Part shown: one piece after another, positions 37,968-64,000 of the stretch
Position numbering within the stretch: position 1 is the first letter of the stretch
Layout: every line of letters begins with the position of its first letter
Source of the DNA: a virus
Virus record (IMG/VR): IMGVR_UViG_3300023215_000707
Coordinates: 1-64,000 of that record
Strand: one strand, 5' to 3'
Length of the DNA: 64,000 nt
Program-made: the position numbers and the translations under genes
Notes under the pieces: generated by a model
Told to the model about the DNA's origin: nothing
What the model saw: only the letters and a program-made list of their open reading frames with translations
The model's database searches: none

Positions 37968-38003
37968 ATGTGGAAAGGGATATTGAAAAATGGAGAGAGA
38001 TAG
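37968..38003 (+). CDS. 11-residue peptide MWKGILKNGER
   Basis: A complete start-to-stop frame that consists of the late-protein N-terminal peptide (M-W-x-x-I-L-K) plus four residues. TTGGAGAGTGTGATA before it can serve as a ribosome-binding site. Its last codons (GGAGAGAG) are the ribosome-binding site of the next gene. A near copy lies at 38965. It may be a free tag peptide, or the cut-down remnant of a gene. Confidence 0.5.
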   Translation: MWKGILKNGER

Positions 38004-38964: not shown

Positions 38965-39000
38965 ATGTGGAAAAGGATATTGAAAAAAGGAGAAATTTAA
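38965..39000 (+). CDS. 11-residue peptide MWKRILKKGEI
   Basis: Second motif-only frame, nearly identical to the one at 37968 (MWK-x-ILK-x-GE). It again lies directly before a gene beginning M-G-W, and its GGAGAAAT forms that gene's ribosome-binding site. Two such units with conserved protein sequence argue against chance. Confidence 0.5.
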   Translation: MWKRILKKGEI

Positions 39001-39297: not shown

Positions 39298-39861
39298 ATG
39301 TGGATGAATATTCTTAAAATAAATGAGAGTTCCGAATTTTGGTTATATGACCCTCAAATAAGTTCTACTGAAATAATTAATATGATACGCACACCTAAAG
39401 AAAAAGTAGTATTTGATATAAAAGATAAGGCTAATGGTTTTCCATTTGATATAAACAAATTCACAGATTTAGCATGGGAACAAATAAAACGAGAAAAGCC
39501 AAAACACTATAAAAGAGAATGGCGAGAAGCAGAGGTTGGAAAAGAATATGCAAGGGAAAAAATTATTCACGCATTTTTAAAGAAATATACGGTTATTGTA
39601 ATAGGTGCTACGGAAGATGATTGGAGAGAAGTATTACAATTTTTAAATATGTATCAAGTAAATCCGTGGAATGAGTTATTATGGGGAACTATATTTGCTT
39701 GGCCTTATCCTAAAGATAAATTAAAATTTTCTTCAAATCATGATTGGATAATTGGTAAAGTGTATTATGTTAATGAAGATAGAAGAATAGATAGACGTTT
39801 ATGGCAATCGGCTAGAGTTGGCGATAGTGATGAAAATATGCATTGGTGGAAAAATGAATAG
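39298..39861 (+). CDS. Late protein with W-x-x-I-L-K start, 187 aa
   Basis: Start at ATG 39298 (MWMNILKINES), four bases after the upstream stop; the longer TTG frame is less likely. Mixed alpha-beta with many Trp and a C-terminal WWKNE. No family recognised. Confidence 0.5.
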   Translation: MWMNILKINESSEFWLYDPQISSTEIINMIRTPKEKVVFDIKDKANGFPFDINKFTDLAWEQIKREKPKHYKREWREAEVGKEYAREKIIHAFLKKYTVIVIGATEDDWREVLQFLNMYQVNPWNELLWGTIFAWPYPKDKLKFSSNHDWIIGKVYYVNEDRRIDRRLWQSARVGDSDENMHWWKNE

Positions 39862-40516
39862 TTGGAAGGATATTCTCAAAGCCCCAGTATGGGATGTTGA
39901 ATTGCCAAAAGGTAAATATTTCACTTTAAGTATAAATGAAAAAATTGATAGAAGTAAATCTTACAGTAAACATGGTATGATGGGGGCCGCAGGTAAACCT
40001 AAAGGTTTATGGTTTAGTTTTACTGATAAGCGTAATTGGATTGATTGGTTAAAACATAATGAACCAATGTGGGAATATCATTATGAATATCTTATTACTT
40101 TTGATATTTCAGGTAATATTCTTAGAATAAAAGATAGAAAAGATATGGAAAAATTAATGGAAGAATATTTAATTCCTCATGCTGAAAGTGGAATAACTTC
40201 AACCCTTGACTGGAATCGTTTATCAAAAGAATATGATGCGGCTATTTTTGAATATCATGGTGTTGGTTGGCAAGGAGAATGGGATGAAAAAGGACTTCCT
40301 ACCCCGATGCATCAGCAAAATTGGTTAGATGCTATTAGTGTTGGAAGTGGGGTTGTTTGGAATTTAGATTCTATTACTGATGAAAAGGTATATGCTCATC
40401 GTAAACTAAAGAGAGGACATAGACGAACAAGAGCAAGAAGAAATATCCCCCGTAAAAAACAGAAAGAGGCTGTAACAATAACAGGTAGAGCGCATGGAGA
40501 TTGGGTGATAGAATGA
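39854..40516 (+). CDS. Late protein with W-x-x-I-L-K start and GLWxS-type domain, 220 aa
   Basis: Start at ATG 39854 (MNSWKDILK), inside the end of the upstream gene. KPKGLWFSF ... WIDWLKHNEPMW ... LDWNRLSKEYDAAIFEYHG ... GSGVVWNLDSI resembles a widespread uncharacterised phage and fungal domain (KP.GLWyS ... W ... YDGI ... ASG.iWN), which I suspect is related to ADP-ribosyltransferase folds. The C-terminus is very basic (KLKRGHRRTRARRN). A candidate packaged effector. Confidence 0.5.
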   Translation: MNSWKDILKAPVWDVELPKGKYFTLSINEKIDRSKSYSKHGMMGAAGKPKGLWFSFTDKRNWIDWLKHNEPMWEYHYEYLITFDISGNILRIKDRKDMEKLMEEYLIPHAESGITSTLDWNRLSKEYDAAIFEYHGVGWQGEWDEKGLPTPMHQQNWLDAISVGSGVVWNLDSITDEKVYAHRKLKRGHRRTRARRNIPRKKQKEAVTITGRAHGDWVIE

Positions 40517-40802: not shown

Positions 40803-41075
40803 ATGAGTTGGGAAAATATACTTAAAGGTGAAAACCCTTCAAGATTTGAAATGGAAATAATAATTCAAACCCACACAACGCTTTCAGAAAATTGGGGATT
40901 ATTGGCTTTATTTATAAATGATTTAAAAGAATTAAAAAAATTAATGAAAATTAGTCAGGAAGATGCTCAATCAAAATGGGAAGAAATGAAAGGTGAGAGA
41001 TTAGATATAGAAGGCACTTTTGAAACAGTAAAGAAGATGTATGCATATATTGATAGATTATTAGGAGAGGCTTAA
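40803..41075 (+). CDS. Late protein with W-x-x-I-L-K start, 90 aa
   Basis: ATG at 40803 (MSWENILKGENP), directly after GGTGATTAAA. Helical remainder. A longer GTG frame from 40794 is possible but the start peptide decides. Unknown function. Confidence 0.5.
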   Translation: MSWENILKGENPSRFEMEIIIQTHTTLSENWGLLALFINDLKELKKLMKISQEDAQSKWEEMKGERLDIEGTFETVKKMYAYIDRLLGEA

Positions 41076-41076
41076 T

Positions 41077-41322
41077 ATGGGTTGGAAATGTATTTTAAAA
41101 GAGGACTTAATGCATGATAATATTAAATCTATAATGGATAACCTATCGGAAAATCTTCAAAAGACAATGGATTTATATACTAAACTAGACCAAAGTATAG
41201 CGCAAGAAAACAAAGAGATGTTACAAGTGGAAATGGGTGATATGGCTCTTGCTTTATTAGATGTGATTAAAGCAAGAGGGAATCTTCAAAGAGCATTATT
41301 TAGACAAGAGGAATTAGCATGA
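41077..41322 (+). CDS. Late protein with W-x-x-I-L-K start, 81 aa
   Basis: MGWKCILKEDL start, then one long helix (MDNLSENLQKTMDLYTKLD). GGAGAGG lies 7 bases before the ATG. Unknown function. Confidence 0.5.
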   Translation: MGWKCILKEDLMHDNIKSIMDNLSENLQKTMDLYTKLDQSIAQENKEMLQVEMGDMALALLDVIKARGNLQRALFRQEELA

Positions 41323-41516
41323 AATGGGAAAATATATTAAAAGAAGATGAAAAGTTAGTTCCCGAATTAAAAGAACTTCTTAAAGAATGGGAAACAAAGC
41401 AATATCCTTCCGATAAAGCCCGATGGAAGGAATACCATAATGATATTCAAACACTTTTAGCGAGAATTATTTCATCAAATATTAAAAGTAGAGGTCCATT
41501 TACAAGAGAGGATTAG
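41319..41516 (+). CDS. Late protein with W-x-x-I-L-K start, 65 aa
   Basis: MKWENILKEDEKL start; helical. It overlaps the previous gene by 4 bases (ATGA). Unknown function. Confidence 0.5.
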   Translation: MKWENILKEDEKLVPELKELLKEWETKQYPSDKARWKEYHNDIQTLLARIISSNIKSRGPFTRED

Positions 41517-41517
41517 A

Positions 41518-43182
41518 ATGGAAAAACGAATTAAAATAATAGAAGGTAAATATAGAGTTGAATCGGAAGGTGGTCGTAATATGGGAGAATATATTAGTGA
41601 AGAAAAGGCTAAAGAAAGATTAGGCCAAATTGAACATTTTAAGAAACAACCACACCCACTTGAACAGACACAATTTGTTAAACAATATCCTCAATATGTT
41701 GATGAATTAAAAAGTGAGATACGATTTCGTAATATCGGTCAAAAACAGGCTGAAATATTATTGGCTAAAAAATATAATTTGCCAATTTTAGATAAATTGC
41801 AACCGAAAAGCCGAGCAACAAGAAATAGTTGGGAAAGTGGAACATGGAAATCGGATGATAATTGGTTTGAGATGTTGAAAGTTAGTGGTCCAGTTACTAG
41901 CACTACTGCTGGTATTGCTACTAGACCACTTTTCGGTAGGAAGAAGAAGAAAATAATCCTAAAAGCCCCCGTTAAAAAGACTAGATTTTTTCGCTATAAA
42001 ACTATGTTATTCAATCAAGAATTTGGAACATTACATGATAAAGTTCAACAGGAATATATAGATTGGAAAAAGACATTAGAAAGTAAAGGTCTTGCTGATA
42101 TTGGTATTACTGGTCGGGGTCATAGGAAGGATGGTTCACAGGGAAAAAAGACATTATTAGAACACATTGAAAACCATATTGAAGCGGCAATTCAAAGACC
42201 GGGCCAATCTCAAAGAAAAGGTGTTAATTTTGTATTAACATATCTTGATGAAGTTATTTTACATGAAAATTCTATAATTACACAAAAGGATGAGGATAAT
42301 ATGTTGGCATTCATTGGAGATATTAAGAAATTTTGGGAAACTGATTCTAACCCTCGTAATATTGTATTTACACAGCCTCGGTCACTTCGGCGTCGTGGTG
42401 GAAAATGGATTGAAGTTGGAAAAGAAACGGTTTACGGGCATTATCGAACCCCGATGTATATTGATAAAAGGAAAAAAGTTGATGGAAGTGAAAAGGAACT
42501 AGATGCAGTTGATAGTTCTTGGTATGATACTGCACCTGATACATCTAAACCACCATTCTATCAAGCGATATTCTCTAATTCATCTTTAGATGAAAGTGTT
42601 GGCAAACCGATTACTAATGGTATTTTAGGTATTTTGGAAAGGTTTGAAGAATCCCTTGGCGATGGACTAGGGAAACCACCAACAATAGTTATTATTGAAG
42701 ATAATGGGAATATGAAAGATAAATTAGACACCTTGAAATTATTGCCTTCGCTAAAAGAAGAAATAAAAAAGGTAATGAAAAATACTTCTATTTATCGGGG
42801 CAATACTGGTAAAGTGATGTATGGTGGTGCAAATCGTCTTATTTCTCTAATAGAGAATATTAGATTCAAAAGTAATGAAACCACTACTAAATATTTGGCT
42901 AAGATTGCAGAAATTAATTTAGAGGCAGATGAAACCCCAATAGCATTAGAATCAATTGATTTATTTTCTATTAAGTTCACTAAGGCAACCATTGATAATT
43001 TGATTAATGAATGGGTTAGGGGAGAAGGGCAATTCAAATCACCAAACAATAGACCAATGATTCTCGCAACAGATACTACTAGTAAATTGAAGCGTTATTC
43101 TTGGTATCAGCAATATCTTGATGCACAGAAAGTTGAAAAGAAAGTTGTTAAGAAGAGTTGGACTGATATGTTATGGGGTTGA
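41518..43182 (+). CDS. Large late protein with internal W-x-x-x-L-K sites, 554 aa
   Basis: The start lacks the tag, but at residues 105-135 it has SWESGTWKSDDNWFEMLKVSG, and it ends KKSWTDMLWG. The N-terminal part (GKYRVESEGGRNMGEYIS, then EEKAKERLGQIEHFKK) resembles a short phage domain of unknown role. Residues after 140 are basic (RKKKKIILKAPVKK). If W-x-x-(I/M)-L-K is a processing site, this protein would be cut near residue 130. Otherwise unknown. Confidence 0.5.
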   Translation: MEKRIKIIEGKYRVESEGGRNMGEYISEEKAKERLGQIEHFKKQPHPLEQTQFVKQYPQYVDELKSEIRFRNIGQKQAEILLAKKYNLPILDKLQPKSRATRNSWESGTWKSDDNWFEMLKVSGPVTSTTAGIATRPLFGRKKKKIILKAPVKKTRFFRYKTMLFNQEFGTLHDKVQQEYIDWKKTLESKGLADIGITGRGHRKDGSQGKKTLLEHIENHIEAAIQRPGQSQRKGVNFVLTYLDEVILHENSIITQKDEDNMLAFIGDIKKFWETDSNPRNIVFTQPRSLRRRGGKWIEVGKETVYGHYRTPMYIDKRKKVDGSEKELDAVDSSWYDTAPDTSKPPFYQAIFSNSSLDESVGKPITNGILGILERFEESLGDGLGKPPTIVIIEDNGNMKDKLDTLKLLPSLKEEIKKVMKNTSIYRGNTGKVMYGGANRLISLIENIRFKSNETTTKYLAKIAEINLEADETPIALESIDLFSIKFTKATIDNLINEWVRGEGQFKSPNNRPMILATDTTSKLKRYSWYQQYLDAQKVEKKVVKKSWTDMLWG

Positions 43183-43187
43183 TTAAT

Positions 43188-43508
43188 ATGGATTGGAAAG
43201 AGATAATTAAAATAAAAGAAGAAGAAAATATAAGAGAATTTGAGGCTAGACAATCAGGTTATCCTGCTGGTGGAGAAATATCTCATGAAGATGCACTAGC
43301 CCATGATGCAGATTTAGTAAATAGACCTTCGGGTGTTATTGGTATGGATGAATGGGAGCGTTTAGCCGAGTATGTTGATGAACCAAAACATTTTGTTGAG
43401 GCTCTAAGAAAATTGGAAGAAATTATAAATTCGGCAGAAATGCGAGGGGGAGAATCAAAGCATGATTTTATTAAACTTCTAGCGCAAATAGTTGGAAAAG
43501 TCAAGTGA
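43188..43508 (+). CDS. Late protein with W-x-x-I-I-K start, 106 aa
   Basis: ATG at 43188 (MDWKEIIKIKEE); GGTTGATTAAT precedes it. A helical protein with acidic residues. Unknown function. Confidence 0.5.
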   Translation: MDWKEIIKIKEEENIREFEARQSGYPAGGEISHEDALAHDADLVNRPSGVIGMDEWERLAEYVDEPKHFVEALRKLEEIINSAEMRGGESKHDFIKLLAQIVGKVK

Positions 43509-43513
43509 TTAAT

Positions 43514-43966
43514 ATGGGTTGGGAAGAGATATTGAAAACTTCTACTTTAGAAGTTAAACTAAAACACATGGTAAAAGATGGAGATTATAGTGATAGTAAA
43601 ATGGCTTGGGCATATAAAAGAATGTGTAAGGCAGGTAAAGACCATATTAGTGAAGGTCTTAATGGTATAAATTTAGATAAAGATTTAATGTATAGTGCTA
43701 TTGGCTATGCTCTTGATGCTTATGCTTATGTAAGATTAGATGATGAAAGTAGAATACCTGAATTTGATGATGAAAGTAGTCAAATATATAAATTACTTCA
43801 AGAAGGTTTAGAAATTTGCAAGAAAGCAAAACAAACTAAATTATATGAAAAGAGAAGTGAAGCGGATAAGAAAAGACAAGAAAGGACTCGTCGAGACTAT
43901 CCTAATTGGCGAGAAGATGAAACTGAGGCTGAATATATGGAAAGAACCGGAGATTTTGTGTGGTGA
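43514..43966 (+). CDS. Late protein with W-x-x-I-L-K start, 150 aa
   Basis: ATG at 43514 (MGWEEILKTSTLE). Helical and Tyr/Asp-rich; ends DETEAEYMERTGDFVW. No family recognised. Confidence 0.5.
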   Translation: MGWEEILKTSTLEVKLKHMVKDGDYSDSKMAWAYKRMCKAGKDHISEGLNGINLDKDLMYSAIGYALDAYAYVRLDDESRIPEFDDESSQIYKLLQEGLEICKKAKQTKLYEKRSEADKKRQERTRRDYPNWREDETEAEYMERTGDFVW

Positions 43967-43971
43967 TTAAT

Positions 43972-44634
43972 ATGGCTAAAACTCGCAAACATTGTAAATT
44001 GTGCCAAAGTGCCGATAGGGAACAATTAGAGGAACGCCTCTCAACAATTCAAATTACCCCCGATGATTTAGATAATGAAATGAAATGGCCTAGTGGGTCT
44101 TCTGCGAGACACTTAAGAAATCACATGGATGGCGATTATGCCAACCAATCTAACCCTAGATGTAATCTTTGTATAAGCCCAAAGAGAATAGAATTAGAAT
44201 TGGCTATTGTTAATGGAGATATTTCTGCAACTGATATTGCTGGAAAAATGAAAATTACCCGCCAACAAGTTCTCAAACATATGGATAAACACCTTAAGCC
44301 AATTGTTCAACAGTCTGCCGCTTTGGAAATTGTAAAGAGGGATTTAAGCGAAATTGATGTTTTAGGTGATAATATTGGAAAATTAGAAGGTAAAATAAAT
44401 CTTCTTTTTGCAGAAGATGATTTGAACCCTAAATATATAGATAGTTTAACTAGACTTGCAAAAGAGATTAGAGAGTCTTTGAAATATCTTTTGGAATTTA
44501 AAGGGCAGTTGGTTCACAAAAGACAAGATACCGTTATTATTGCTCAAATGAATATTGTTCAAGAAGTATTGGCGCAACAACACCCCGATGTTTGGTTAGA
44601 TGTTAAGAGTAGAATGAAGGAGAGGTTAGAATGA
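43972..44634 (+). CDS. Probable terminase small subunit (zinc/HTH duplicate)
   Basis: 220 residues. Two tandem copies of a C-x-x-C ... R-x-x-(I/L)-E ... H-x3-H unit: HCKLCQSADREQLEERL ... LRNHMDGD, and RCNLCISPKRIELELAIVNG ... ITRQQVLKHMDKH. The second contains a helix-turn-helix. This zinc-HTH pattern (C..C....R..Id..l..g.s...ia.....s..sl.rH) is typical of phage small terminase proteins that recognise packaging sites. A coiled coil follows. It lacks the W start peptide, as expected for a protein not packaged. Large terminase is 8 kb downstream. Confidence 0.5.
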   Translation: MAKTRKHCKLCQSADREQLEERLSTIQITPDDLDNEMKWPSGSSARHLRNHMDGDYANQSNPRCNLCISPKRIELELAIVNGDISATDIAGKMKITRQQVLKHMDKHLKPIVQQSAALEIVKRDLSEIDVLGDNIGKLEGKINLLFAEDDLNPKYIDSLTRLAKEIRESLKYLLEFKGQLVHKRQDTVIIAQMNIVQEVLAQQHPDVWLDVKSRMKERLE

Positions 44635-45125
44635 GTTGGAAAGATATATTGAAAAATTCGTCTATACAAGAACTAAATAAAATTTTAGATTTTATTAAAT
44701 CTAATAGAAGTCTTCTTACAAGAGAATCTAATCAACCTATTGTTGATGGAAATTTAACAGAAGAAATTGCTGAAAAAATATTAAATGACCTTAAAGGTGG
44801 TAAAAGTTCACCATATAATCAAATAGATACTGATAATGTAAGTTTGCACATTGATGATGGTTTTGATTTAAAAATTGGTAGTGGAGCAGACAATTATTTT
44901 TATTCTTTTTATACTCAAGATTATATCACTATGATGAAAAATCCAGAAAAGGTGTATGCCTTTGTAGTTAAATTTATTGAAATGATAGGAAGAACACCAG
45001 AAGAAATGGATTTAGATGAAACTGCTATGTCTTTAAAATACATTAAAGAAGGTGGTGTTCATTGGGTTCCTAAAGACCCTGATTCTAAACCAAAAAAAGC
45101 AACACCCACAGGATATAGACCATAG
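44631..45125 (+). CDS. Late protein with W-x-x-I-L-K start, 164 aa
   Basis: MSWKDILKNSS start; alpha-beta remainder ending in a Pro/Lys-rich tail (KPKKATPTGYRP). It overlaps the small-terminase stop by 4 bases. Unknown function. Confidence 0.5.
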   Translation: MSWKDILKNSSIQELNKILDFIKSNRSLLTRESNQPIVDGNLTEEIAEKILNDLKGGKSSPYNQIDTDNVSLHIDDGFDLKIGSGADNYFYSFYTQDYITMMKNPEKVYAFVVKFIEMIGRTPEEMDLDETAMSLKYIKEGGVHWVPKDPDSKPKKATPTGYRP

Positions 45126-45136
45126 GAGAGATTAGA

Positions 45137-45481
45137 ATGAGTTGGAAAGATATACTGAAAATAATAGATTTTGACGCAAATGAGTTTTATGTTGGAAAAT
45201 ATAAACAAATTGAACAATATGGTGGTCCAGAAGAAGGCGGTTGGTGGTATTTTAATTACGACTATTTAGGAGAAAGTGTGGGGCCATTACCAAAGAAAGA
45301 AGCAATTGACGCACTTAAAGCGTTAAACAATGACCGAAAACCCCCAAAAGAATTTTATGAAAATTTACCTGAAGAAGATAAAGATATTGCTAGAGGATTT
45401 ACCATTTCATCTGGAATTGTATATAGGTTAGAAAATAAAAAGGGCGACCAACAACATATGAAAAGGGAATATTATGAGTGA
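45137..45481 (+). CDS. Late protein with W-x-x-I-L-K start, 114 aa
   Basis: MSWKDILKIIDF start, preceded by GGAGAGATTAGA. Rich in Tyr, Trp and Gly (QYGGPEEGGWWYFNYDY). Unknown function. Confidence 0.5.
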   Translation: MSWKDILKIIDFDANEFYVGKYKQIEQYGGPEEGGWWYFNYDYLGESVGPLPKKEAIDALKALNNDRKPPKEFYENLPEEDKDIARGFTISSGIVYRLENKKGDQQHMKREYYE

Positions 45482-45854
45482 TTACAATTGGAAAAATATA
45501 TTAAAAATAGGAACTTGGAATGCTTATATTAGAGATTATGATGGGGGTGGGTATATGAATATTCTTCAATCAATAGCAGACCCTTCATATGAAGAAGAAG
45601 CAGAAGCGATTGAAACGGATTCTCAAGATGAAACATATAAAAGATTTAAGATGATAATGGCTGTTGTAGGTATGACTGTTCAAGGAGATAAAAATGAAGG
45701 AGTAACAAGAAATCTTATTAGGGGGTTTCTACAACAGGGTGGCTCTAATGCTAATTATTGGTATGTAATTAGTCAAGTAAAACCTGCTGATGATTATAAA
45801 CCTGATTTTAACCCACATAGTAGTGAAAGTGTAAGAGATTTAACGGAAGAATAA
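45474..45854 (+). CDS. Late protein with W-x-x-I-L-K start, 126 aa
   Basis: MSDYNWKNILKIGTW: the peptide is set three residues further in than usual. Acidic, Tyr-rich remainder. It overlaps the previous gene by 8 bases. Unknown function. Confidence 0.5.
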   Translation: MSDYNWKNILKIGTWNAYIRDYDGGGYMNILQSIADPSYEEEAEAIETDSQDETYKRFKMIMAVVGMTVQGDKNEGVTRNLIRGFLQQGGSNANYWYVISQVKPADDYKPDFNPHSSESVRDLTEE

Positions 45855-45882: not shown

Positions 45883-46137
45883 ATGAGTTGGCAAGATATA
45901 CTTAAAATAGACATTACAATGAATTGGCAAGATGTAATTAAAACATCATTGCAAGATTTATTTAATCAATTATCTACTTCTCAAAAACAAGAAGTAAATA
46001 ATCATATTAAAGCGGGTCTTACTGGTCAAAAGGCTATAGAAATAATTCAAATGAAATATGGATTAGGTAGTTTTAAGGGAAAATATGAGAATAAACCACA
46101 ACCACCTGAAAGTGCTTGGAGAGAGAAAACATATTAA
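45883..46137 (+). CDS. Late protein with duplicated start peptide, 84 aa
   Basis: MSWQDILKIDIT is followed at once by MNWQDVIKTSLQ, so the motif occurs twice with an internal ATG at 45919 that could be a second start. Short helical body (STSQKQEVNNHIKAGLTGQKA). Unknown function. Confidence 0.55.
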   Translation: MSWQDILKIDITMNWQDVIKTSLQDLFNQLSTSQKQEVNNHIKAGLTGQKAIEIIQMKYGLGSFKGKYENKPQPPESAWREKTY

Positions 46138-46149
46138 GGAGAATATACA

Positions 46150-46332
46150 ATGAGTTGGCAAGATATAATAAAAAGTAAATCTCTTGATGAAGTAGACCAA
46201 GATATTGCTATGTATATCAATATATTAAATGGTTATATTCCACAGATTGAAGAAGTCTATAATGAAGATGATTTGAATAAAATAATTAATTCTTTAGTTA
46301 GTATGCTACAATCAACAATGAGGGGAAATTAA
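46150..46332 (+). CDS. Late protein with W-x-x-I-I-K start, 60 aa
   Basis: MSWQDIIKSKSLDE, then helices. AAGGAG lies 8 bases before the ATG. Unknown function. Confidence 0.5.
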   Translation: MSWQDIIKSKSLDEVDQDIAMYINILNGYIPQIEEVYNEDDLNKIINSLVSMLQSTMRGN

Positions 46333-46347
46333 TAAGGAGAGATTACA

Positions 46348-46665
46348 ATGAGTTGGAAAAATATACTTAGAAAAGGAACAGCGACAGCGACTCGTTCTGC
46401 TGAATTGTGGGCTATGAATGATTATGAACTTTATCAAGATATTTATAAATTTATAAAAGAAAAAGCCCGACAGGGATTAGATAAAGATGAAATTTTTAAT
46501 GCGGTTGTTAAATTTCTTCCTGAGAGAATGGCGCTTTTGGATGGTTTCATGGTAGAATTAACTGAATATGAACCCTCTGATGGAATTAGTGATGTAGATT
46601 GGGTTGAAGTTGTAAAAGGCTATGAACCTGAGATTGAAGAAGCGATTAAATTTTTTAAGGAATGA
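46348..46665 (+). CDS. Late protein with W-x-x-I-L-R start, 105 aa
   Basis: MSWKNILRKGTATAT start, then helical and acidic. AAGGAGAG lies before the ATG. Unknown function. Confidence 0.5.
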   Translation: MSWKNILRKGTATATRSAELWAMNDYELYQDIYKFIKEKARQGLDKDEIFNAVVKFLPERMALLDGFMVELTEYEPSDGISDVDWVEVVKGYEPEIEEAIKFFKE

Positions 46666-46670
46666 TTACA

Positions 46671-46940
46671 ATGGGTTGGCAAGATATACTGAAAAAAATA
46701 ATAACTGCTAGAGAATTTCTACAATCTATTCAGGAAAAAACAGGTGGAGAGATTACAGATAAAATGAGAGGAAGGGGAAAATGGAAAATTGATATGATTC
46801 TTTCTCATGATGCTGGATATATAAAAATTATACAAAAGGGCATAAGTGAATTTGCGATTAATGTTAATGGGAAAGAATATTTAACTACTTATAATTTAAA
46901 TAAAATCCTTCCTGAAGTTTTAGAAATGATTGGGAAATGA
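46671..46940 (+). CDS. Late protein with W-x-x-I-L-K start, 89 aa
   Basis: ATG at 46671 (MGWQDILKKIITA); the longer frame from 46662 lacks a good site. Beta-rich middle (YIKIIQKGISEFAINVNGKE). Unknown function. Confidence 0.5.
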   Translation: MGWQDILKKIITAREFLQSIQEKTGGEITDKMRGRGKWKIDMILSHDAGYIKIIQKGISEFAINVNGKEYLTTYNLNKILPEVLEMIGK

Positions 46941-46944
46941 TTTT

Positions 46945-49044
46945 ATGAGTTGGCAATTACTTTTGCTAAAGGCTAAAGTTAAGTTACCTAAAGATGATGA
47001 TAGTGTTTGGGCAAATCAAATCTTAAGAACTGAGGCTTTAACTGATGGTTTTATTTCCGATATTAAAGCGGGAAATTTTGACCTAAAGGGTATTGATTCC
47101 ACGTTAGCAGAATTGCGCTTTTGGAAAGAAAACCCCAATAATGCTGAAAGTAGAGAAGAGATAAGGACATTGCGACAAGTAAGGGAATTTGATGTTTCTC
47201 CCCAACAATTACAGAATAGAATTAAAAGAATAATTACTGAGGTTTTGCCTGTTTTAGAGGGGAAAAGGAAAGGTGGTAAACAAAAAGCAGGGCAAAAAGG
47301 GGGAAAGGCCCGAAAATATGATATTTCTAAAGAAAGCATTAGTGAAGTATTAGATACCTTTGAGGAATTAACAGAAGAAGAACAACATTTTTACATTAAA
47401 TATTGGAATAGGGTATTTATAGATAAAAGGAAACATGATGAGTATAAACCATTTTTAAGTCATAAATATTCTACAATGATGAAGCCAATATTAGAAAAGA
47501 TTACTCTTGCTGATATTGATATAGAAGGGGATTTATCTTTATTAGATGCTAGAGTTGTAACTGTTAAATCTAAAGATGATTTAACCCGATTTGGTTTTAG
47601 TGAAGAAAAAGGATTTTGGAAGAAGATTGTAGATAAAAAACAAACGATTAGCACTAGAGGAGAACTTGTAGATAATGTTAGAATGGAAAAACTGCCCAAT
47701 TTTGCGCCGCTACCAATTACTAAAATCTTTGGTTTGGTTAAGAAAATTAAAGATGATATTACAGTAGAAGAATATACCATGCAAGAACCCTTTACTGCTG
47801 GCACTGCTTTAAAATATCTTAATACTATTGAACATCATACAGAATTATTTCTTACTAAAAATATAAAAGAGGCTAAAAAGGCCGCAGGTGTGGGAAAAAC
47901 TGTTCATTTTGTGGATAAATATTTACGGGGGATTCTAGAGTTAGAAGAGGAAGATTTAGATAATTTTGCAGAATCTTTTATCAAAAGTATGGAAACCAAA
48001 ATTGTTTCAACTGCTAAGTTGCAAGGCTATTATGCTCGTATGATTCATAATGCCTTAAAAGATAGTAATTGGTATTGGAAAGATTTTGGGGAAGAATCTT
48101 ATGATTCCGTTAAACACGCTATTTTCAAAGAATTGACTGGAAGAGATGGAATATTTAAGGATAAATTTAACGAAGTTAAAAGGAAAATTGAGGAAGGTCA
48201 AAAAAGAGAAAAAAGGGCAGGTGTTACCCCTAGTCAAAAGGAATTTATAGAATTAATTATAACAACGGATTTAGATAATAATTTATTTGAGAGCATAGAT
48301 GATGTTGCAGAAGAGTTGATTGAAAAATTAAAAGAGGCTTCTCCTACATTTAGAGGAGATGAAATAAAAATAGGAGAGCAATCTTTAGAGTTTTTTACAA
48401 CTACTCAAAAGGATTTGATATTAGAAGTTTTAACGATGGTGGATTCCTTACCCGATAGTGCTAATTTAAAAGAAGAATGGGAAGAGATACAAGATGAGAA
48501 TGAAGAGGTTGAAACTCAACTACGAGATTTTTTGGCTCAACAAGAACAAGAATATGAAGTTGAATTTAATAAGGATGTTTTTTCAACCACGTTAGAAAAA
48601 CAATTTGCTGAAATAATTTACAAAGTGTTACAATCGGATGAACGTCTTGATGATGTATTAAGTGGAGAAGTAGTATTTTCAAAAAATGTTATGGCTGGTT
48701 TCAATTTCACCGATATAGTTAATGCAATTATTGTTCTTGATGATATTTACCATACTGGTAATAATTTAGGTCAAACTATTATAGAATTGGAAGAGGGAAG
48801 AGAAGAAGATTTGGATTTTAATGTTGATTCTCCACCATTAGTAGAAGAAATAAAACAATTTACTGGGCAGTTCGTTAATGCTATTCCCCAATTACGCACA
48901 AAAATTACTCAAGATGTTGAAGATAAAGTTAAAGATATTATTGCACACCCCCTACATTATAAGAAGGAAGCGGCAAAGGGGAAAACAATCTTTAAAGAAT
49001 TAATTAGGAAGGGTATTATAGAGGTGAAATCTAATGAAGTATGA
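46945..49044 (+). CDS. Very large late protein, 699 aa, variant start
   Basis: ATG at 46945 (MSWQLLLLKAKVK), a variant of the start peptide with LLLLK. A long, mostly helical, highly charged protein with a basic patch (KRKGGKQKAGQKGGKARK) near residue 110 and acidic stretches near residues 510-535. No catalytic motif. Its size and place in the late module suggest an internal virion or injected protein. The next gene overlaps its end by 11 bases. Confidence 0.5.
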   Translation: MSWQLLLLKAKVKLPKDDDSVWANQILRTEALTDGFISDIKAGNFDLKGIDSTLAELRFWKENPNNAESREEIRTLRQVREFDVSPQQLQNRIKRIITEVLPVLEGKRKGGKQKAGQKGGKARKYDISKESISEVLDTFEELTEEEQHFYIKYWNRVFIDKRKHDEYKPFLSHKYSTMMKPILEKITLADIDIEGDLSLLDARVVTVKSKDDLTRFGFSEEKGFWKKIVDKKQTISTRGELVDNVRMEKLPNFAPLPITKIFGLVKKIKDDITVEEYTMQEPFTAGTALKYLNTIEHHTELFLTKNIKEAKKAAGVGKTVHFVDKYLRGILELEEEDLDNFAESFIKSMETKIVSTAKLQGYYARMIHNALKDSNWYWKDFGEESYDSVKHAIFKELTGRDGIFKDKFNEVKRKIEEGQKREKRAGVTPSQKEFIELIITTDLDNNLFESIDDVAEELIEKLKEASPTFRGDEIKIGEQSLEFFTTTQKDLILEVLTMVDSLPDSANLKEEWEEIQDENEEVETQLRDFLAQQEQEYEVEFNKDVFSTTLEKQFAEIIYKVLQSDERLDDVLSGEVVFSKNVMAGFNFTDIVNAIIVLDDIYHTGNNLGQTIIELEEGREEDLDFNVDSPPLVEEIKQFTGQFVNAIPQLRTKITQDVEDKVKDIIAHPLHYKKEAAKGKTIFKELIRKGIIEVKSNEV

Positions 49045-55290: not shown

Positions 55291-56933
55291 CGGAAAAGCG
55301 ACGATTTTCAGTTATGAATTTTTTTAGGAAATCTACACCTGTTCCTTTAGACAGAGAAATTTATCAAATGGGCATTCAAGAACAGCATCATCCTTTAATG
55401 ATGACTGGGCCAATTATTTACCATATTTCTCAAAGTTCTGTAATTTTGCGAACTTGTATTACCCAATTAAAGAATGAAATATTTAGAAGAGGATATGAAT
55501 GGTCGTCTAAATTTGAATTGAAATGTGAAGATTGCGGAAAAGAACATGGTAATATTGTGGATAAATGTGCTGAATGTAAATCTAATAATTTACGAAAACC
55601 TGACCCTGCACAAAAAATATACGCAGATACTTTTCTACATTGTGAATATGTAAATGAATCGGAACAAATGTTTATTGATATTCTTAAGGAATTAGAAGAT
55701 GATTTGAATATCATGGATGACGCATATTTAGTTCTAGTCAAAGAATATTTCCTTGATGGCAATGGGCAGATTAAGGCGCATAGAATTAAACAATTATATA
55801 GGGCTGACCCAGTAACTATGGCTATTGTATGTGATGATGATGGCAATAAGGGTGGAAATGCTTTTACTTGTATTAATCATAGAGATATAATAGTTACAGA
55901 ACCTTTTGAGAAATGTGATGAATGTGGATGTGAATTATTCCCTGTTCATTATACTAATAGAGCGCATGGAGAAGAACAACATTTCATTAAAGGAGAAGTT
56001 CTTCATTTTAGTAAATATTCTCCTAGTAGATTATATGGGTCAAGTCCAATCATTACTATGTGGAATCACTTAACAACTCTTATTGCTATGGAGAATTATA
56101 TTAATCAAGCCTATACCAAAGCAAGAATGCCTAGAGGATTATTGGCTGTTCAAACTAGAAATATTGAATCTATGCGAACATTTTGGCGAGGTGTTAAAGA
56201 AAAGATGGAACAAGATGCCCATTTTATTCCAGTGATGGGTATTGAAGCAGAAAATGGGAAAGGTTCTGTTGAATGGATTAAATTTATGGATAGTTTAAAA
56301 GAAATGGATTATATGGCTGTTAAAGAAGATTTAAGAGATAGGATTTCAGCATTTTATGGTGTAAGTAAAATTTTCATGGCTGATAGTTCAACTAGTGGTG
56401 GATTAAATAATGAAGGTATGCAAATTCTTGTAACTAATCGTGCAGTTGAAATGGCGCAGAGTGTTTGGAATAAGTATGTATTTACATTTATTGTTAAACA
56501 ATTTGGAATTACTGATTGGAATATTGTGCTACCACCTTCGGAAGAAGAAGATGAAATTGCTACAATGAGAAAGCGTGAAATTGAAGTTAATATTGCAGGG
56601 CAAATTAAGAATCTTGGATTTGAGGTAGATATGGATGAAGAAGGTAAATTCATTTATACAAAACCTGAACCCCAACCCGAAGGAGAAGTTCAAGAAGAGG
56701 AAGAAATAGAACGTGACCCTTATGCTGGAACAGATATAGACCAATCACAATTAGGGCAAATGATGGAAGCCGGAACTAAACCAACAATGGCCGAAGCAGG
56801 GCAACCAGCCAAAGTAAAAGCCGCAAGTCCTAAACCTAAAATGAGCGTAGGGCCACCTAATCGGAACAAAGGTTTACCAAAAGAAGCCGCAAATAATAAT
56901 GTAGATAGAAGGACTGAAAGAGGCGGAATTTAA
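55287..56933 (+). CDS. Portal protein with zinc-ribbon insertions
   Basis: 548 residues. QYMGIQEQHHP near the start, and the core FSKYSPSRLYGSSPIITMWN, then AMENYINQAYTKARMPRG, are typical of HK97-type portal proteins. A run AFYGVSKIFMADSSTSGG is also portal-like. Two zinc ribbons are inserted in the outer part: CEDCGKEHG ... CAECKS (about residues 80-103) and CINHRD ... CDECGCE (about 197-220). The acidic/Pro-rich C-terminal 90 residues are probably disordered. It overlaps the previous gene by 4 bases. Confidence 0.8.
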   Translation: MTEKRRFSVMNFFRKSTPVPLDREIYQMGIQEQHHPLMMTGPIIYHISQSSVILRTCITQLKNEIFRRGYEWSSKFELKCEDCGKEHGNIVDKCAECKSNNLRKPDPAQKIYADTFLHCEYVNESEQMFIDILKELEDDLNIMDDAYLVLVKEYFLDGNGQIKAHRIKQLYRADPVTMAIVCDDDGNKGGNAFTCINHRDIIVTEPFEKCDECGCELFPVHYTNRAHGEEQHFIKGEVLHFSKYSPSRLYGSSPIITMWNHLTTLIAMENYINQAYTKARMPRGLLAVQTRNIESMRTFWRGVKEKMEQDAHFIPVMGIEAENGKGSVEWIKFMDSLKEMDYMAVKEDLRDRISAFYGVSKIFMADSSTSGGLNNEGMQILVTNRAVEMAQSVWNKYVFTFIVKQFGITDWNIVLPPSEEEDEIATMRKREIEVNIAGQIKNLGFEVDMDEEGKFIYTKPEPQPEGEVQEEEEIERDPYAGTDIDQSQLGQMMEAGTKPTMAEAGQPAKVKAASPKPKMSVGPPNRNKGLPKEAANNNVDRRTERGGI

Positions 56934-57223
56934 TGAATTGGAAAAATATATTAAAAGAAATTACACCACCACAATTTAATAATATTGAAGAGATGGTTTT
57001 ATGGATGTTGAATAACAACATTAAGAATGGTCGAGAGATTTCTAATAAATGGCATGAAAATGTGGGTCAAAAGACGCAATATAGAGATGTAGAAACGCAG
57101 GGTTCGGTAACAGATAATGCAGTTATAATTCTTGAGCCTTTAACTAAATATATTACTAGAGATATGGGATTAAGAGAACAATGGATTAGTCTTTTACAAC
57201 AAAAAAAGATAATGGGTGATTAA
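56933..57223 (+). CDS. Late protein with W-x-x-I-L-K start, 96 aa
   Basis: MNWKNILKEITPPQ start; the ATG overlaps the portal stop. Helical. Unknown function. Confidence 0.5.
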   Translation: MNWKNILKEITPPQFNNIEEMVLWMLNNNIKNGREISNKWHENVGQKTQYRDVETQGSVTDNAVIILEPLTKYITRDMGLREQWISLLQQKKIMGD

Positions 57224-57224: not shown

Positions 57225-57488
57225 ATGACTTGGGAAAAAATACTTAAAGAGAAAGTGCCTACATTTGAAGAAACAGGGGCCTTTGATGGGCCTTGGGAAG
57301 AGGATGAAAAAGAAACTATAACAATAGATAATGTGAAAGATTATTCACCAAAAGATATTTCTTCTTTATATTATAGTATTAAATTAATTATGCATAATGC
57401 GATGGGAAAGGGAGATAAAGCATTAGATATGAATAGTGCAGTTGAACTAATTATTGGACAAGTAGAATCGTATCAAAAGGGGAAATAA
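57225..57488 (+). CDS. Late protein with W-x-x-I-L-K start, 87 aa
   Basis: ATG at 57225 (MTWEKILKEKVP), preceded by GGTGATTAAA. Acidic and helical. Unknown function. Confidence 0.5.
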   Translation: MTWEKILKEKVPTFEETGAFDGPWEEDEKETITIDNVKDYSPKDISSLYYSIKLIMHNAMGKGDKALDMNSAVELIIGQVESYQKGK

Positions 57489-59086: not shown

Positions 59087-59542
59087 ATGAATTGGCAAAA
59101 TATACTTAAAAACCAAAGACCCGATTACCCTGATTTAGATGGTGATGGTAATACTGATGAACCAATGGTTGATGCTCTTGCAACTGTTGAGCAGGTTGAG
59201 TCTGTTAAGAAAGAGTCTTTATTAAAAGAAGAGAGTAAAATTCTTAATGCTCTCGATTCTAAAAAGAAGAAAAGCCTTAAGAAAACATTACAGGCGGCAG
59301 AACCAACAGAATATTTCGGTCAAGATTATACTAAGTTAGGAGAGTTAATTGATATGATGGAAACATTGGATTTGGTTAAAGATGATTCCAAATTAAAGAA
59401 AAAGATGAAATCCATTAATGAGCAAAATGTTGATATGATTGCTACTGCCAGCAAACTTCGTAAGCAGTATGAACAATTGTATCGTCAAATTAGAAAAATA
59501 GTATATCCAAAAAGTGCAGGTAGTTTGAGGGATAAGAAATGA
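59087..59542 (+). CDS. Late protein with W-x-x-I-L-K start and Ca-binding loop, 151 aa
   Basis: MNWQNILKNQRP is followed by PDLDGDGNTDEPM, an EF-hand/dockerin-type D-x-D-x-D-G calcium loop of a kind also seen in some phage structural proteins. The rest is helical and Lys-rich. Probably a virion protein. Confidence 0.55.
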   Translation: MNWQNILKNQRPDYPDLDGDGNTDEPMVDALATVEQVESVKKESLLKEESKILNALDSKKKKSLKKTLQAAEPTEYFGQDYTKLGELIDMMETLDLVKDDSKLKKKMKSINEQNVDMIATASKLRKQYEQLYRQIRKIVYPKSAGSLRDKK

Positions 59543-59790
59543 GTTGGAAAAATGAATTAAAGAAAGATGCAGAAGACGAGATTTGGCAAGAACAAGAAAG
59601 ACGCCCTAAGCAAATAATGGGTGATAGTGAATTAACCATAAAAATATTAGCCGAGTTTCTTTTGAAATATAATACAACACCCGATGAGTTAGATAATCTG
59701 TTTATAGATAGTCCAGATTTTAAAGAATTACAATCTACATTTGGAAAATTTTATCAAGAAAAATTTAAACATTTATTAAGAGATGATTAA
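59539..59790 (+). CDS. Late protein with variant W start, 83 aa
   Basis: MSWKNELKKDAEDE: the start peptide with E for I. Helical body. It overlaps the previous gene by 4 bases. Unknown function. Confidence 0.5.
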   Translation: MSWKNELKKDAEDEIWQEQERRPKQIMGDSELTIKILAEFLLKYNTTPDELDNLFIDSPDFKELQSTFGKFYQEKFKHLLRDD

Positions 59791-59791
59791 A

Positions 59792-60028
59792 ATGAAAAAA
59801 GAAAATAATGAAATGATGGATTTACTGAAAGAATTAGTATCTCGCATAAAGCAAATAGAGCAGACGGTTTACAATAGTGATAACCTTTTAATGAAATCAG
59901 GTATTGTGAAAGTTGAATCTCCTACTCCTATTATCACTAAACATGATACTATTCCAGATTCTAACAGTATCGCAAATATGAGTTGGAATGATATTAATAC
60001 TTTAGTTGGAAAATTAGGTGGTGATTGA
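59792..60028 (+). CDS. Late protein, 78 aa
   Basis: ATG at 59792 (MKKENNEMM), after GATTAAA. A coiled-coil N-terminal half (MDLLKELVSRIKQIEQTV) and, near the end, NMSWNDINTLVGKL, which partly echoes the start peptide. Unknown function. Confidence 0.45.
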   Translation: MKKENNEMMDLLKELVSRIKQIEQTVYNSDNLLMKSGIVKVESPTPIITKHDTIPDSNSIANMSWNDINTLVGKLGGD

Positions 60029-60764: not shown

Positions 60765-63242
60765 GTGCCACTTTCCGTTGAAAAAGAGAAAGACCCTTTA
60801 ACTATTAGGATTATTCATTTTTTTGAAGACTTCCGAATGGGTTATCTTTCTGCCCTATCCGACCCAAAGGTATATGCTAAAAAATGGATGAGTAAAGTTA
60901 AGACTTTAAGAGAACAATGGGATAATATTGACGATTTTAGCAAAGTAATTAAAGATGTAATTGTTGAAAAGGATTTATTTTCTAATGAAGCGGAAAATGT
61001 TGAAAGTGATACTGCTAGGCATCTTTATGAACAGATTAAAGATTTACGTTATTCTTCCGAGAAAATAAAAGACCCTTTCGTTAATAAATTCAAAACAGAA
61101 GTTTTAGAAAATTTATTTGAAGACGTTTCTATTTTTGCTAAATTTATTCATTGGGCCATTCGTCGTCATGGAAACGCATTATCCGAAGATGCGTGGAAAT
61201 CTAAGGATTTAGAACCAGATATTCTAACTGATGGATATGTTGGCCTTAATCTTGCAGAATCGGATATTGCAAATTTTATTGTTGAACATTATGGTGATGA
61301 TAAAGATACTAAACGTATCAAGGGAAAATATTTAGCGGCTAAAAAATTACTTGAAGAAATTTACATTGCTCAACATAGTTCTTCTGCTTGGAATAATATC
61401 ATTAGTTTAAAGAAAGCAGAAAAGTCAGCCATGCATTTTCTAATTCCCAATAAACCAATGTATCGAATTTTCGACATTGATGATTTAAAAGAACTTAAGG
61501 GATTCACTGGAGATTATGTAGTTCAAGAAAAATACGATGGTATGAGGATTCAAATTCATAAAATAGATAATAAGGTCAAGATTTATTCTTTTAATGGAAA
61601 AGATATAACCAAGTATTGTCCTAAACAAATAGAAATTATGAAGAAAAAACATTTTGGAGATTGCATACTTGATGGTGAATTAATGTTATTTGATGGGGAA
61701 ACTCCATTACATCGAGCAGAAGTAGTGGCTCGCATATTCAAAGGTAAAAAATCCAACGGTGTTTTGAAGGCTCATGTATTTGATATTATGAGAAATGAGA
61801 ATACCGAATTACATGATGCCCCATTATCCGAAAGATTGCAAATTCTCTTCAATAATTATTCCATCCATTCGGATGAATTTTTGGCCTTTCCATCTAAAAA
61901 AGATACCCGTTTTGCGGATTCAATAAAACAAGTTGAAGATTATGCAAAAGAAATAATGGAAATTCCCACGGCAGAAGGTGTGGTTATTAAAGACCTTACT
62001 TCTACTTATTTTATAGGAACAAAGAAAAACCCCAAATGGATTAAATGGAAAAAATTTGTAGATTTAGATTTAATAGTATTAGAAAAGAAGACAACCAAAT
62101 CTAATATGTTCACCTATACTTTAGGTGCTGGTCCTGTTGATGAAGAATATAAGAATACTAAAACCATTAATGAAAAGATATATCTTAATGTTGGTAAAGC
62201 CCTTAATACTAAAACAGAAGTGGATATTGGTGATATAATTCGGGTAAAGGTAGATGAAGTTAAGAAAAATAAAGATGGGAGTTATACTTTGTTTTCTGCT
62301 AAGGTAATTGAAATTCCTGAAGTAGAAACACCAGATAAATTAATTACTTTGGAAATGTTATCTAAAGATACTAAAAAATCATTAAATTATGATGTTAAGG
62401 CTTTAGAGAAAGGATATTCTATTACTGATTCTATTCATGGAGAGGCGACCGTGATAATAAAAGGAGAGATGGATGGGTTTACATTTTATGGTTTTGAAGA
62501 AAATAATTTAATGGCTAAAAATGCATTAATAGATTTAGATGTATGGAAAATCCAAATAGAAGATATGCTCAAAGAAGAAAAAGCCTATTTAAGAGTCTCA
62601 ATTAGAAATTTTTTACTTGAAAAAGATGGGGAAACTCTGTTTTCTGAAATAGAAGAATATGTTAAAAAGAATAATCCAAAGGAATTTAATAATGTATTTG
62701 GTAGTGATTCAAAGAAAATGATGAATTGGCTTAGGCATCAAGAAGATATTGATTATTTAGGTAATGGGAAATTTATTGCTAATGAAGGAACATTAGAAAA
62801 AGCATATAAAACCCCTGATAAATATAGAAAAGGGGATTTTAAAATTTATCATAATAATGATACTCTTTCAATTCTTTTTAAATTACACGATACTACAATA
62901 GGATGGGAAATAAAAATAGAATCCGAAGATGATATATTTTCTTTATTTGGCAAATCTGGTAAATTCCCTGCCCAAATTCAAACTAATTTCCGAAAAGGGA
63001 AATTAATAGATTCTGGAGATGTTGAATTAGGGGTTCAAAGAAATGGTTATCATGAATATATTTTACAAGGTAATAAATTCGATACAAAATTTCATGTTAG
63101 AGTCATACCTGTAAAGGATAAAAAAATATGGTTGGCGTGGACTGGATTAGAAACTAAACCTGTTGATTCTAGTAGTGATGATGGTATATGGGATATTACA
63201 AATGATAAATATTCGGATTTAATGCCGGAAGAATTAAAATAG
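60765..63242 (+). CDS. Second ATP-dependent DNA ligase-like protein in the late module, 825 aa
   Basis: Helical N-terminal domain of about 230 residues. Adenylation domain: VQEKYDGMRIQIH (catalytic Lys in K-Y-D-G-x-R, about residue 254), CILDGELMLFDG, AHVFDIMRNENTEL, AEGVVIKDLTSTY and KWIKWKKF. An OB-like region follows (GDIIRVKVDEVKK). The last about 300 residues have a helical segment and a beta domain (FKIYHNNDTLSILFKLH; GYHEYILQGNKFDTKFHVRV) that may be related to ligase-D phosphoesterase-type domains. GTG start after GGTGATTTT. Its place between head genes suggests a virion-associated or packaging-linked role. Confidence 0.75.
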   Translation: MPLSVEKEKDPLTIRIIHFFEDFRMGYLSALSDPKVYAKKWMSKVKTLREQWDNIDDFSKVIKDVIVEKDLFSNEAENVESDTARHLYEQIKDLRYSSEKIKDPFVNKFKTEVLENLFEDVSIFAKFIHWAIRRHGNALSEDAWKSKDLEPDILTDGYVGLNLAESDIANFIVEHYGDDKDTKRIKGKYLAAKKLLEEIYIAQHSSSAWNNIISLKKAEKSAMHFLIPNKPMYRIFDIDDLKELKGFTGDYVVQEKYDGMRIQIHKIDNKVKIYSFNGKDITKYCPKQIEIMKKKHFGDCILDGELMLFDGETPLHRAEVVARIFKGKKSNGVLKAHVFDIMRNENTELHDAPLSERLQILFNNYSIHSDEFLAFPSKKDTRFADSIKQVEDYAKEIMEIPTAEGVVIKDLTSTYFIGTKKNPKWIKWKKFVDLDLIVLEKKTTKSNMFTYTLGAGPVDEEYKNTKTINEKIYLNVGKALNTKTEVDIGDIIRVKVDEVKKNKDGSYTLFSAKVIEIPEVETPDKLITLEMLSKDTKKSLNYDVKALEKGYSITDSIHGEATVIIKGEMDGFTFYGFEENNLMAKNALIDLDVWKIQIEDMLKEEKAYLRVSIRNFLLEKDGETLFSEIEEYVKKNNPKEFNNVFGSDSKKMMNWLRHQEDIDYLGNGKFIANEGTLEKAYKTPDKYRKGDFKIYHNNDTLSILFKLHDTTIGWEIKIESEDDIFSLFGKSGKFPAQIQTNFRKGKLIDSGDVELGVQRNGYHEYILQGNKFDTKFHVRVIPVKDKKIWLAWTGLETKPVDSSSDDGIWDITNDKYSDLMPEELK

Positions 63243-63264: not shown

Positions 63265-64000
63265 ATGAGTTCTGCTGTTATGCTCAAAACTATTAATCCC
63301 TTGCGGCGAGATTCTTTTGATATTCTTAAAGCAGATGATTTGGTTATTGGTGGTTATGCTTCTATTGAAATGGTGGATAAACAAAATGATTTAATCACTT
63401 TAGAAGCATTACACGAAGCAGTTAAGAAATATATGGTAACGCCTAAATTTAGAAATGTAATGACTAATCATTCTAATGTTCAAGTAGGAGAAGTTGTTCC
63501 CCAATATAGAGATAAAGAAGGTAGATTATGGAAAACTGAGGTTGATGATGTTGGGTTTTTCGTAGTAATAAAAATAAGAGAAGATATTGAAAAGGCCAAA
63601 GAAGTTAGTCGAGAAATTAGAGATGGGTCTTTGCGCTCATTTTCTATTGGGGGTCAAGCCTTGGAAAAGAAAAAGAAAACTCATAAAGAATATGGAGATT
63701 ATAATGAAATCTCTAAATTAGAATTACATGAAGTAACTGTATGTGAAAAGGGAATTAACCCCGAAGCAAGATTTGATATTCTAAAACAAGATAGAGGTAA
63801 TGGTATGAATGAAATTGAAAATGCATTAAACGAGTTAAATAAGACTTTGGATAAGATTAATAATAGCGATAATTTGGCAAAAATAGAAGAATTAACAGAA
63901 AACAATATAAAGAACCTTAGAGAAAATACAGAAACAGTAGAGGGGGCAATTGAAATGTCGGACTTAGAGAAAGATGAAGAAGAAGAAGAAATTGTAGATG
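63265..64000 (+). CDS. Prohead protease, probably fused to scaffold (3' end outside window)
   Basis: The frame is open to the end of the window (about 245 codons). Protease domain: LVIGGYASIEMVDKQNDLIT start, NHSNVQVGEVV (catalytic His region) and GSLRSFSIGGQAL (catalytic Ser), then LHEVTVCEKGINPEA, typical of HK97-like S78-type proteases. The end is a coiled coil with acidic residues (EIENALNELNKTLDKIN), as in protease-scaffold fusions. RRDSFDILKADD at about residue 16 and EARFDILKQDR after the protease domain repeat the F/W-x-I-L-K theme of the late start peptides. Major capsid should follow. Confidence 0.8.
   Translation, partial: MSSAVMLKTINPLRRDSFDILKADDLVIGGYASIEMVDKQNDLITLEALHEAVKKYMVTPKFRNVMTNHSNVQVGEVVPQYRDKEGRLWKTEVDDVGFFVVIKIREDIEKAKEVSREIRDGSLRSFSIGGQALEKKKKTHKEYGDYNEISKLELHEVTVCEKGINPEARFDILKQDRGNGMNEIENALNELNKTLDKINNSDNLAKIEELTENNIKNLRENTETVEGAIEMSDLEKDEEEEEIVD

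Follow-up and report, generated by a model that had tools for sequence, protein, structure and literature searches.

A candidate two-part capsid-targeting peptide that ends in the proposed cleavage site of a viral prohead protease

The capsid targeting sequence (CTS) of phage T4 comprises residues 4 and 7, which target the protein, followed by residues 8 and 10, at which it is processed by the protease gp21 (PMC9026906). In the heads of SPN3US and phiKZ, a gp245-type prohead protease removes the N-terminal propeptides of several internal proteins at a short motif (PMC10052503), and in phage P1 an N-terminal signal of DarB is sufficient for loading a reporter protein into the capsid (PMC9024508). 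The gp4 protease of HK97, which is of the S78 type, removes a 103-residue N-terminal scaffold domain from the capsid protein (PMC10275583), while the scaffold of human cytomegalovirus (HCMV) binds the major capsid protein via a conserved domain (CCD; PMC10145422). Here, we describe a short start peptide of the M-(S/T/N)-W-x-(D/N/E)-I-L-K kind found on many late genes of the virus record IMGVR_UViG_3300023215_000707 (IMG/VR), together with matching sites in the prohead protease, the capsid protein and a small scaffold-like protein of the same virus. From these sequences we consider it likely that the peptide is a capsid-targeting tag made of a docking part (MSWxDI) and a protease site cut after Lys, and that the same protease trims itself, the capsid protein and the small scaffold. 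The window that we analyzed covers the first 64,000 bases of this 72,790-base record, and the remainder of the protease gene as well as the capsid gene were read from the full record.

Matching sites in the prohead protease, capsid protein and small scaffold

The protease gene lies on the + strand at 63265-63999 and runs on past the window end to record position 64560, encoding a protease-scaffold fusion of 431 amino acids that Pfam assigns to the S78 type. Peptidase_S78 (PF04586) matches the open reading frame (ORF) with an E-value of 4.9e-10 and 40.2 bits (cut-off 21), next to an XkdF-type S78_2 match (E 2.7e-5). The best Foldseek match of the protease model is T4 gp21 (5jbl), the sole match in the PDB with E < 1e-3, while a sequence search of solved structures returned nothing useful. 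H69 (in NHSN) and S125/S127 (in LRSFSIGG), the candidate catalytic His and Ser, are invariant in 32 protease relatives. An earlier note on this DNA had pointed to a twofold FDILK in this protein at positions where prohead proteases commonly cut themselves, and both observations are borne out by the ORF translation and the domain boundaries: the S78 domain covers residues 26-175, and the two FDILK sites lie directly on either side of it. Site 1 (residues 18-22; 63316-63330, + strand) stands in the context ...RRDSFDILKADD (F18-K22) and site 2 (residues 170-174; 63772-63786, + strand) in ...EARFDILKQDR (F170-K174). Based on conservation and the structural model, we propose self-cleavage after Lys22 and a cut between protease and scaffold after Lys174. 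The AlphaFold2 model has moderate confidence in the domain and places site 1 in a low-confidence segment ahead of the first strand and site 2 in another such segment (residues 164-181), both largely unstructured. When the first 200 residues of the protease were shuffled 100,000 times, two F-x-I-L-K never arose, and any repeated 5-mer was seen in 1.8% of the shuffles.

Both sites are conserved in relatives, a check that the earlier note had called for. In all 81 relatives whose N-terminus is readable, site 1 reads F-x-I-(L/I)-K, though the residues preceding it vary completely, and site 2 is invariant as KFDILK, RFDILK or KFNILK. K22 and K174 are invariant in 32 diverse proteases down to 44% identity. 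A deeper branch (ca. 44% identical) has EFVILK, ELVILK or EFAVLK at site 1 and KFNIIK or KFEIVK at site 2, so that the fixed core of the protease sites is aliphatic, aliphatic, Lys. The haloarchaeal relatives HVTV-1, HCTV-1 and HCTV-5 keep Lys at both equivalent protease positions (PVFK|SKDGD and KFGVVSK|ADGD), and among their proteins that were read no start peptide of the MSWxxILK kind was found. The scaffold half of the fusion contains a nearly invariant I-x-K ca. 35-45 residues from the C-terminus, with mostly Arg at the position before Lys (P2, the proposed cut following Lys as P1), which is a possible further cut that would release the tail in a way resembling the herpesvirus M site. One record, G012 (IMGVR_UViG_3300021958_000021; 184,733 bases), carries two differing protease copies (72400-72975 and 163878-164459) and is probably two viral genomes joined in assembly.

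The gene following that of the protease encodes the capsid protein, which was recognized by its similarity to the major head protein of HCTV-1 (E 2e-21). It begins with YINTIKDLEAATYG, continues with a Gly/Asn-rich stretch of varying length and then shows (L/I/V/M)-L-K near residue 30 in 57/57 sequences, with S, A, G or Q as the next residue; the capsid protein of the deeper branch has LLK, LMK or LIK at the same place. This x-L-K is positioned where the end of a predicted N-terminal propeptide of ca. 30 residues would be expected. Upstream of the protease, a gene at 59783-60028 (+ strand) encodes a small scaffold-like protein of 81 amino acids with a coiled-coil-like N-terminus, an LLMK|SG site and a C-terminal NMSWNDIN tail. 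Its proposed cleavage site LLMK (59885-59896, + strand) appears as (L/I/M)-L-(M/V)-K-S-G in all 34 unique homologues, and K-S-G is invariant among them (34/34).

Altogether, five classes of candidate substrates (protease site 1, protease site 2, capsid protein, small scaffold and start peptides) have in common an aliphatic-(L/I/V/M)-K with invariant Lys. Cleavage after Lys, which the earlier note had suggested as the link between protease and start peptides, can thus be upheld as the simplest common cause of the x-L-K found in the capsid protein, the protease and the tags, as far as sequences can tell. The single recognition motif (W/F)-x-x-I-L-K proposed alongside it had to be dropped: the aromatic residue is F at P5 in the protease (F-x-I-L-K) and W at P6 in the start peptides (W-x-x-I-L-K), it is absent from the sites of the capsid protein and small scaffold, and F has changed to L at one diverged protease site of the deeper branch.

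Start peptides of late genes and their cargo

That late start peptides end in the same I-L-K as the protease sites had likewise been noted before and holds across the record, where 21 genes carry 22 N-terminal W-x-x-(I/V/L)-(L/I)-(K/R) sites. Every one of them is on the + (late) strand, which has 62 predicted genes, and the - strand with its 63 has none (Fisher p ~2e-8 with sites as the counting unit). Their DNA shows 22 differing nucleotide spellings in 23 cases with all six Leu codons in use, so that conservation is at the level of amino acids rather than DNA.

Among all viral loci retrieved, M-(S/T/N)-W-x-(D/N/E)-I-L-K starts 687 unique proteins of 330 unrelated families from 160 loci, all of them on marine viral contigs. 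These tagged proteins range from ca. 45 to more than 800 residues, and 100 representatives could be aligned only in MSWxxILK. When W-x-x-aliphatic-aliphatic was searched without demanding Lys, the next residue was Lys in 644/674 cases, Arg in 11 and Glu in 1, and most of the non-Lys exceptions listed have the Lys shifted by one residue (MTWEDMLIK, MSWENILLK, MSWERIISK). A strict DNA pattern for the start peptide gave 33 scattered single matches in 84,980 species genomes versus at least 120 stretches in viral contigs, some with two or three copies, which speaks against a trait of host genomes. An S78 protease of the type described here is present in 29 of the 39 long viral records with the pattern. 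Records that bear the tag but lack the protease were considered as counter-examples and set aside: G026, a related record, is truncated ahead of the protease gene, and several others, with just one match each, look like chance.

Few of the 100 tagged representatives could be named with Pfam, i.e., as PAP2 phosphatase-like, pentapeptide repeat, GNAT or DUF6782 metallopeptidase proteins, and the rest, including those scanned from the window, received no assignment from Pfam and PHROGs. HExxH is present in several further tagged proteins. The tag acts like a module that can move, in that homologues of the same domains occur with a normal, a variant or no tag. As a modest further hint at the mechanism proposed below, mature tagged proteins contain fewer I-x-K than expected (250 observed vs 303 expected, z -3.3), whereas neither untagged late proteins (z -0.6) nor early proteins (z 0.3) show such a deficit. 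A literature search for the peptide found no mention of it in any virus, the matches being antimicrobial, mostly frog-skin, peptides.

Some arrangements around the tags deserve separate mention. Tagged PAP2-like proteins fused to a second domain carry a degenerate internal tag, SWEDILQ, at the junction (L134:4274-5110 and L227:5135-6031, both - strand), as if two tagged genes had fused. In G026 (L270 14929-17370), adjacent tagged genes (WWEILKNAKISGKATG, MNWWDILKNAKLSGKAKG, MWWDILKAAKVSGKAKG) have a second conserved stretch, DASKIKINID, in common after the tag. In HVTV-1 (L083 9230-18018), gp115 and gp116, and more weakly gp113, have a common stretch like VYVDSPDEAPEGVQVQQG that is a possible head-protein module.

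The start peptides of the window are all on the + strand, and their coordinates rest on a motif scan and codon comparison of the record's genes unless stated otherwise. A first series comprises MGWQAILK (38005-38028), MSWFEILK (38367-38390), MSWKNILK (38641-38664), MWMNILK (39298-39318) and MNSWKDILK (39854-39880), followed by the variant MDWETQIK with a non-aliphatic P3 (40577-40600), whose homologue in L132 has MSWTNIIK. Further along are MSWENILK (40803-40826), MGWKCILK (41077-41100), MKWENILK (41319-41342), MDWKEIIK (43188-43211), MGWEEILK (43514-43537), MSWKDILK twice (44631-44654 and 45137-45160) and MSDYNWKNILK (45474-45506). A tandem pair in one small gene consists of MSWQDILK (45883-45906) and MNWQDVIK (45919-45942); this gene reads MSWQDILK-IDIT-MNWQDVIK (45883-45942), with either a duplicated tag or two alternative starts. 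Next are MSWQDIIK (46150-46173), MSWKNILR with Arg at P1 and then Lys (46348-46371), MGWQDILK (46671-46694) and, on a late protein of 704 amino acids, the variant MSWQLLLLK that is one residue longer (46945-46971). Closer to the protease gene lie MNWKNILK (56933-56956), MTWEKILK (57225-57248), MNWQNILK (59087-59110) and, from reading of the ORF, the variant MSWKNELK with Glu at P3 (59539-59562). Two very short reading frames beside tagged genes start with MWKGILK/MWKRILK (37968-37988 and 38965-38985).

The - strand of the record carries genes for PolB, replication factor C (RFC), an ATP-dependent ligase, an ERCC4 nuclease, a chaperonin and a TFIIB-like factor, while terminase, portal, a second ligase, protease, capsid and other late genes are on the + strand; Pfam matches cover PolB, ligase, ERCC4, RFC, chaperonin, portal, terminase and S78. 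The described gene content of magroviruses, tailed viruses of marine group II archaea, agrees with that of the record (PMC10160649), which has the whole set of PolB, DNA ligase, ERCC4-type nuclease, portal, terminase, capsid protein and S78 protease. By this gene content, the source virus appears to be magrovirus-like, and a Poseidoniales host would go with that assignment only. The second ATP-dependent ligase, a protein of 825 amino acids with long flanking regions (60765-63242), lies in the late block directly 5' of the protease gene, and a protein similar to it also precedes the protease in the deeper branch (L262-L266).

A docking motif at scaffold tails and the weighing of explanations

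The first part of the start peptide recurs at the other end of two scaffold-type proteins. The protease-scaffold fusion has the C-terminal tail M-(S/D/N)-W-x-(D/E)-(I/L)-(N/H), e.g., NMDWNDINAL in this virus and MSWSDIHKM in relatives. Two residues of this tail, M416 and W418, do not vary among 32 diverse proteases. Similarly, the small scaffold-like protein ends in NMSWNDINTL (MSWNDI without L-K at 59978-59995, + strand, from ORF comparison), and M-(S/D)-W-x-(D/E)-I stands at the C-terminus of all 34 unique homologues. Across 1,409 unique ORFs, M-(S/D/N/T/G)-W-x-(D/E/N)-(I/L/V) occurs 187 times: L-K follows in 0/93 C-terminal and in 91/93 N-terminal occurrences, and one apparently internal occurrence resembles a missed start. 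MSWxDI can therefore be regarded as a separable docking motif that is made removable by L-K. Consequently, W is better seen as part of this motif than as a residue recognized by the protease, as had been suggested earlier. Since the scaffolds of tailed phages and herpesviruses work inside the shell, the partner of MSWxDI is by analogy probably the capsid protein or the core. A late protein of 554 amino acids in the window (41518-43182) has an internal NWFEMLK and the C-terminus KKSWTDMLWG, and a protein at a similar place in G026 (L270 17502-18644) ends in KKSWSEMLWRD; these KKSW...MLW ends look like another C-terminal W motif and are perhaps a third docking tail.

From the sites, their conservation, the common docking motif and its placement at N- or C-termini, all of which are read from sequence, we infer cleavage, docking on the inner capsid or core, packaging and ejection as follows. 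M-S-W-x-(D/E)-I, as a copy of the C-terminal tail of both scaffold proteins, would dock unrelated cargo inside the prohead. There, the S78 protease would cut after Lys in aliphatic-(Leu/Ile/Val/Met)-Lys and, once active, trim itself at Lys22, be freed from its scaffold half by the cut at Lys174 and remove ca. 30 residues from the major capsid protein as well as part of the small second scaffold. L-K would complete the protease site of the tag, which would thus be lost at head maturation and leave the cargo free inside the capsid. By analogy with T4, mature cargo would stay with the DNA and probably enter the host with it. For a broader version, in which cargo loading in magroviruses is open-ended and the gain of an 8-residue copy of the scaffold tail plus L-K is enough for a late protein of any kind to be loaded, freed and delivered into the archaeal host, we see even chances.

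Several observations weigh against a cleavable tag of this kind. The residue after the proposed cut (P1') differs between classes, with S/A/G/Q in the structural proteins and E/K/N/R in the tags, and some tags have a relaxed P3 (MDWETQIK, MSWKNELK). Protease site 2 lies inside a strongly conserved KGINPEAKFDILK block that is possibly structural. The depletion described above is weak for (I/V)LK (z -1.6), and several patterns besides I-x-K had been tried. The model of the capsid protein, with a pLDDT of 42, was of too low quality to be used, and all close relatives of the source virus are metagenome-derived.

The difference at P1' would suit a start peptide that serves docking alone and is retained by the protein, as in encapsulin cargo loading. 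I-L-K would then belong to a helix used for binding, and its likeness to the sites of protease and capsid protein would be secondary. At least part of the peptide indeed seems to be for binding given that its W and I recur in the scaffold tail. However, this tail has the docking half without L-K, which makes L-K dispensable for docking. After W, Lys is under the strongest constraint and still appears behind insertions that shift it, and x-L-K is found in the capsid protein without any W; we therefore regard pure docking as unlikely. The tag could also be an anchor to a membrane or a host partner, e.g., for membrane assembly, rather than a signal for capsid entry, and W together with hydrophobic residues at alternating positions would fit a short amphipathic helix. 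Yet two scaffold-type proteins, which normally partner with capsid or core, have this motif as their C-terminal tail, and no comparable repeated use was seen in the 84,980 species genomes, which leaves an anchor as quite improbable.

Even less probability, by a small step, goes to the idea that F-x-I-L-K is kept for folding of the protease domain and resembles the start peptides by coincidence. Both sites border the domain and site 2 is part of a long conserved block, as folding would have it, but the segments are modelled at low confidence without regular structure, site 1 is preserved within a variable N-terminus, the diverged branch retains (I/V)-x-K yet loses F at one site, and the site is common to the capsid protein and small scaffold. 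Finally, the position of the peptide at gene starts of the late strand only might recall a nucleic-acid signal (translation start context, promoter or recombination site) that incidentally encodes MSWKDILK. This has next to no chance of being correct and is contradicted by the codon spread, i.e., 22 spellings in 23 cases with six Leu codons, and the amino-acid motif also recurs at scaffold C-termini.

Significance and comparison with known systems

If a cleavable capsid-targeting tag is indeed what these peptides are, a simple sequence rule would label the head-internal proteins of a very abundant, uncultured virus group in which most late genes are without known function, and the cut sites of capsid protein, scaffold and protease would be predicted to the residue. 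It would also reveal a simple route to cargo loading, the reuse of a scaffold docking tail with a cleavable end, and be the first capsid-targeting tag described in archaeal viruses as far as the literature searched shows. The start peptide could also serve as a tool to load proteins into virus shells. Should open-ended cargo loading be true, each genome would encode ca. 20 rapidly changing proteins for delivery, among them PAP2-, GNAT-, pentapeptide- and metallopeptidase-like ones.

Among known systems, HK97 has a protease of the same family that also removes an N-terminal capsid domain, with the capsid cut after Lys103. However, HK97 has neither a separate scaffold nor tagged cargo, and the capsid propeptide in our virus would be only ca. 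30 residues long. Herpesvirus UL80/UL80.5 (HCMV) resembles the locus described here in its protease-scaffold fusion with a release site in between and in its separate scaffold protein with a common tail. Herpesvirus sites are of the Ala-Ser type, and we know of no family of tagged cargo in herpesviruses. The SPN3US/phiKZ system differs in its A-x-E site, in the length of most propeptides (111-254 residues) and in the nine substrates found. No consensus has been found for the P1 Dar proteins, whereas the one described here is strict. An encapsulin-type cargo-loading peptide would be an uncleaved one that binds the shell; in the start peptides, the docking half is shared with scaffold tails and the addition of L-K points to removal.

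The closest parallel is the T4 CTS. In IPI-IPIII, targeting residues precede processing residues, just like W3/I6 here precede I6-L7-K8, and the closest solved structure to the protease is T4 gp21. As in T4, the same short N-terminal peptide is found on unrelated proteins (330 families). The end of the peptide may correspond to the protease site, with an x-L-K that by sequence is common to capsid protein, protease and small scaffold. The scale is different: three internal proteins (IPs) with CTS in T4 compare to ca. 21-24 tagged genes in a single record and 330 families in the group. In T4, Glu is the last residue of the site, while the start peptides show no likeness to the T4 peptide and have Lys at P1 (644/674, with Arg in 11 and Glu in 1). 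The tag would thus work like a CTS without being a CTS member by descent. Its docking half is the scaffold's C-terminal tail, too, and to our knowledge no such identity between the docking half of the CTS and a scaffold tail is known in T4. What would be new relative to the T4 CTS is therefore the sequence, the P1 residue, the number of tagged proteins and the copy of the scaffold tail, while the working principle of a CTS and its protease, which this tag would follow, is known.
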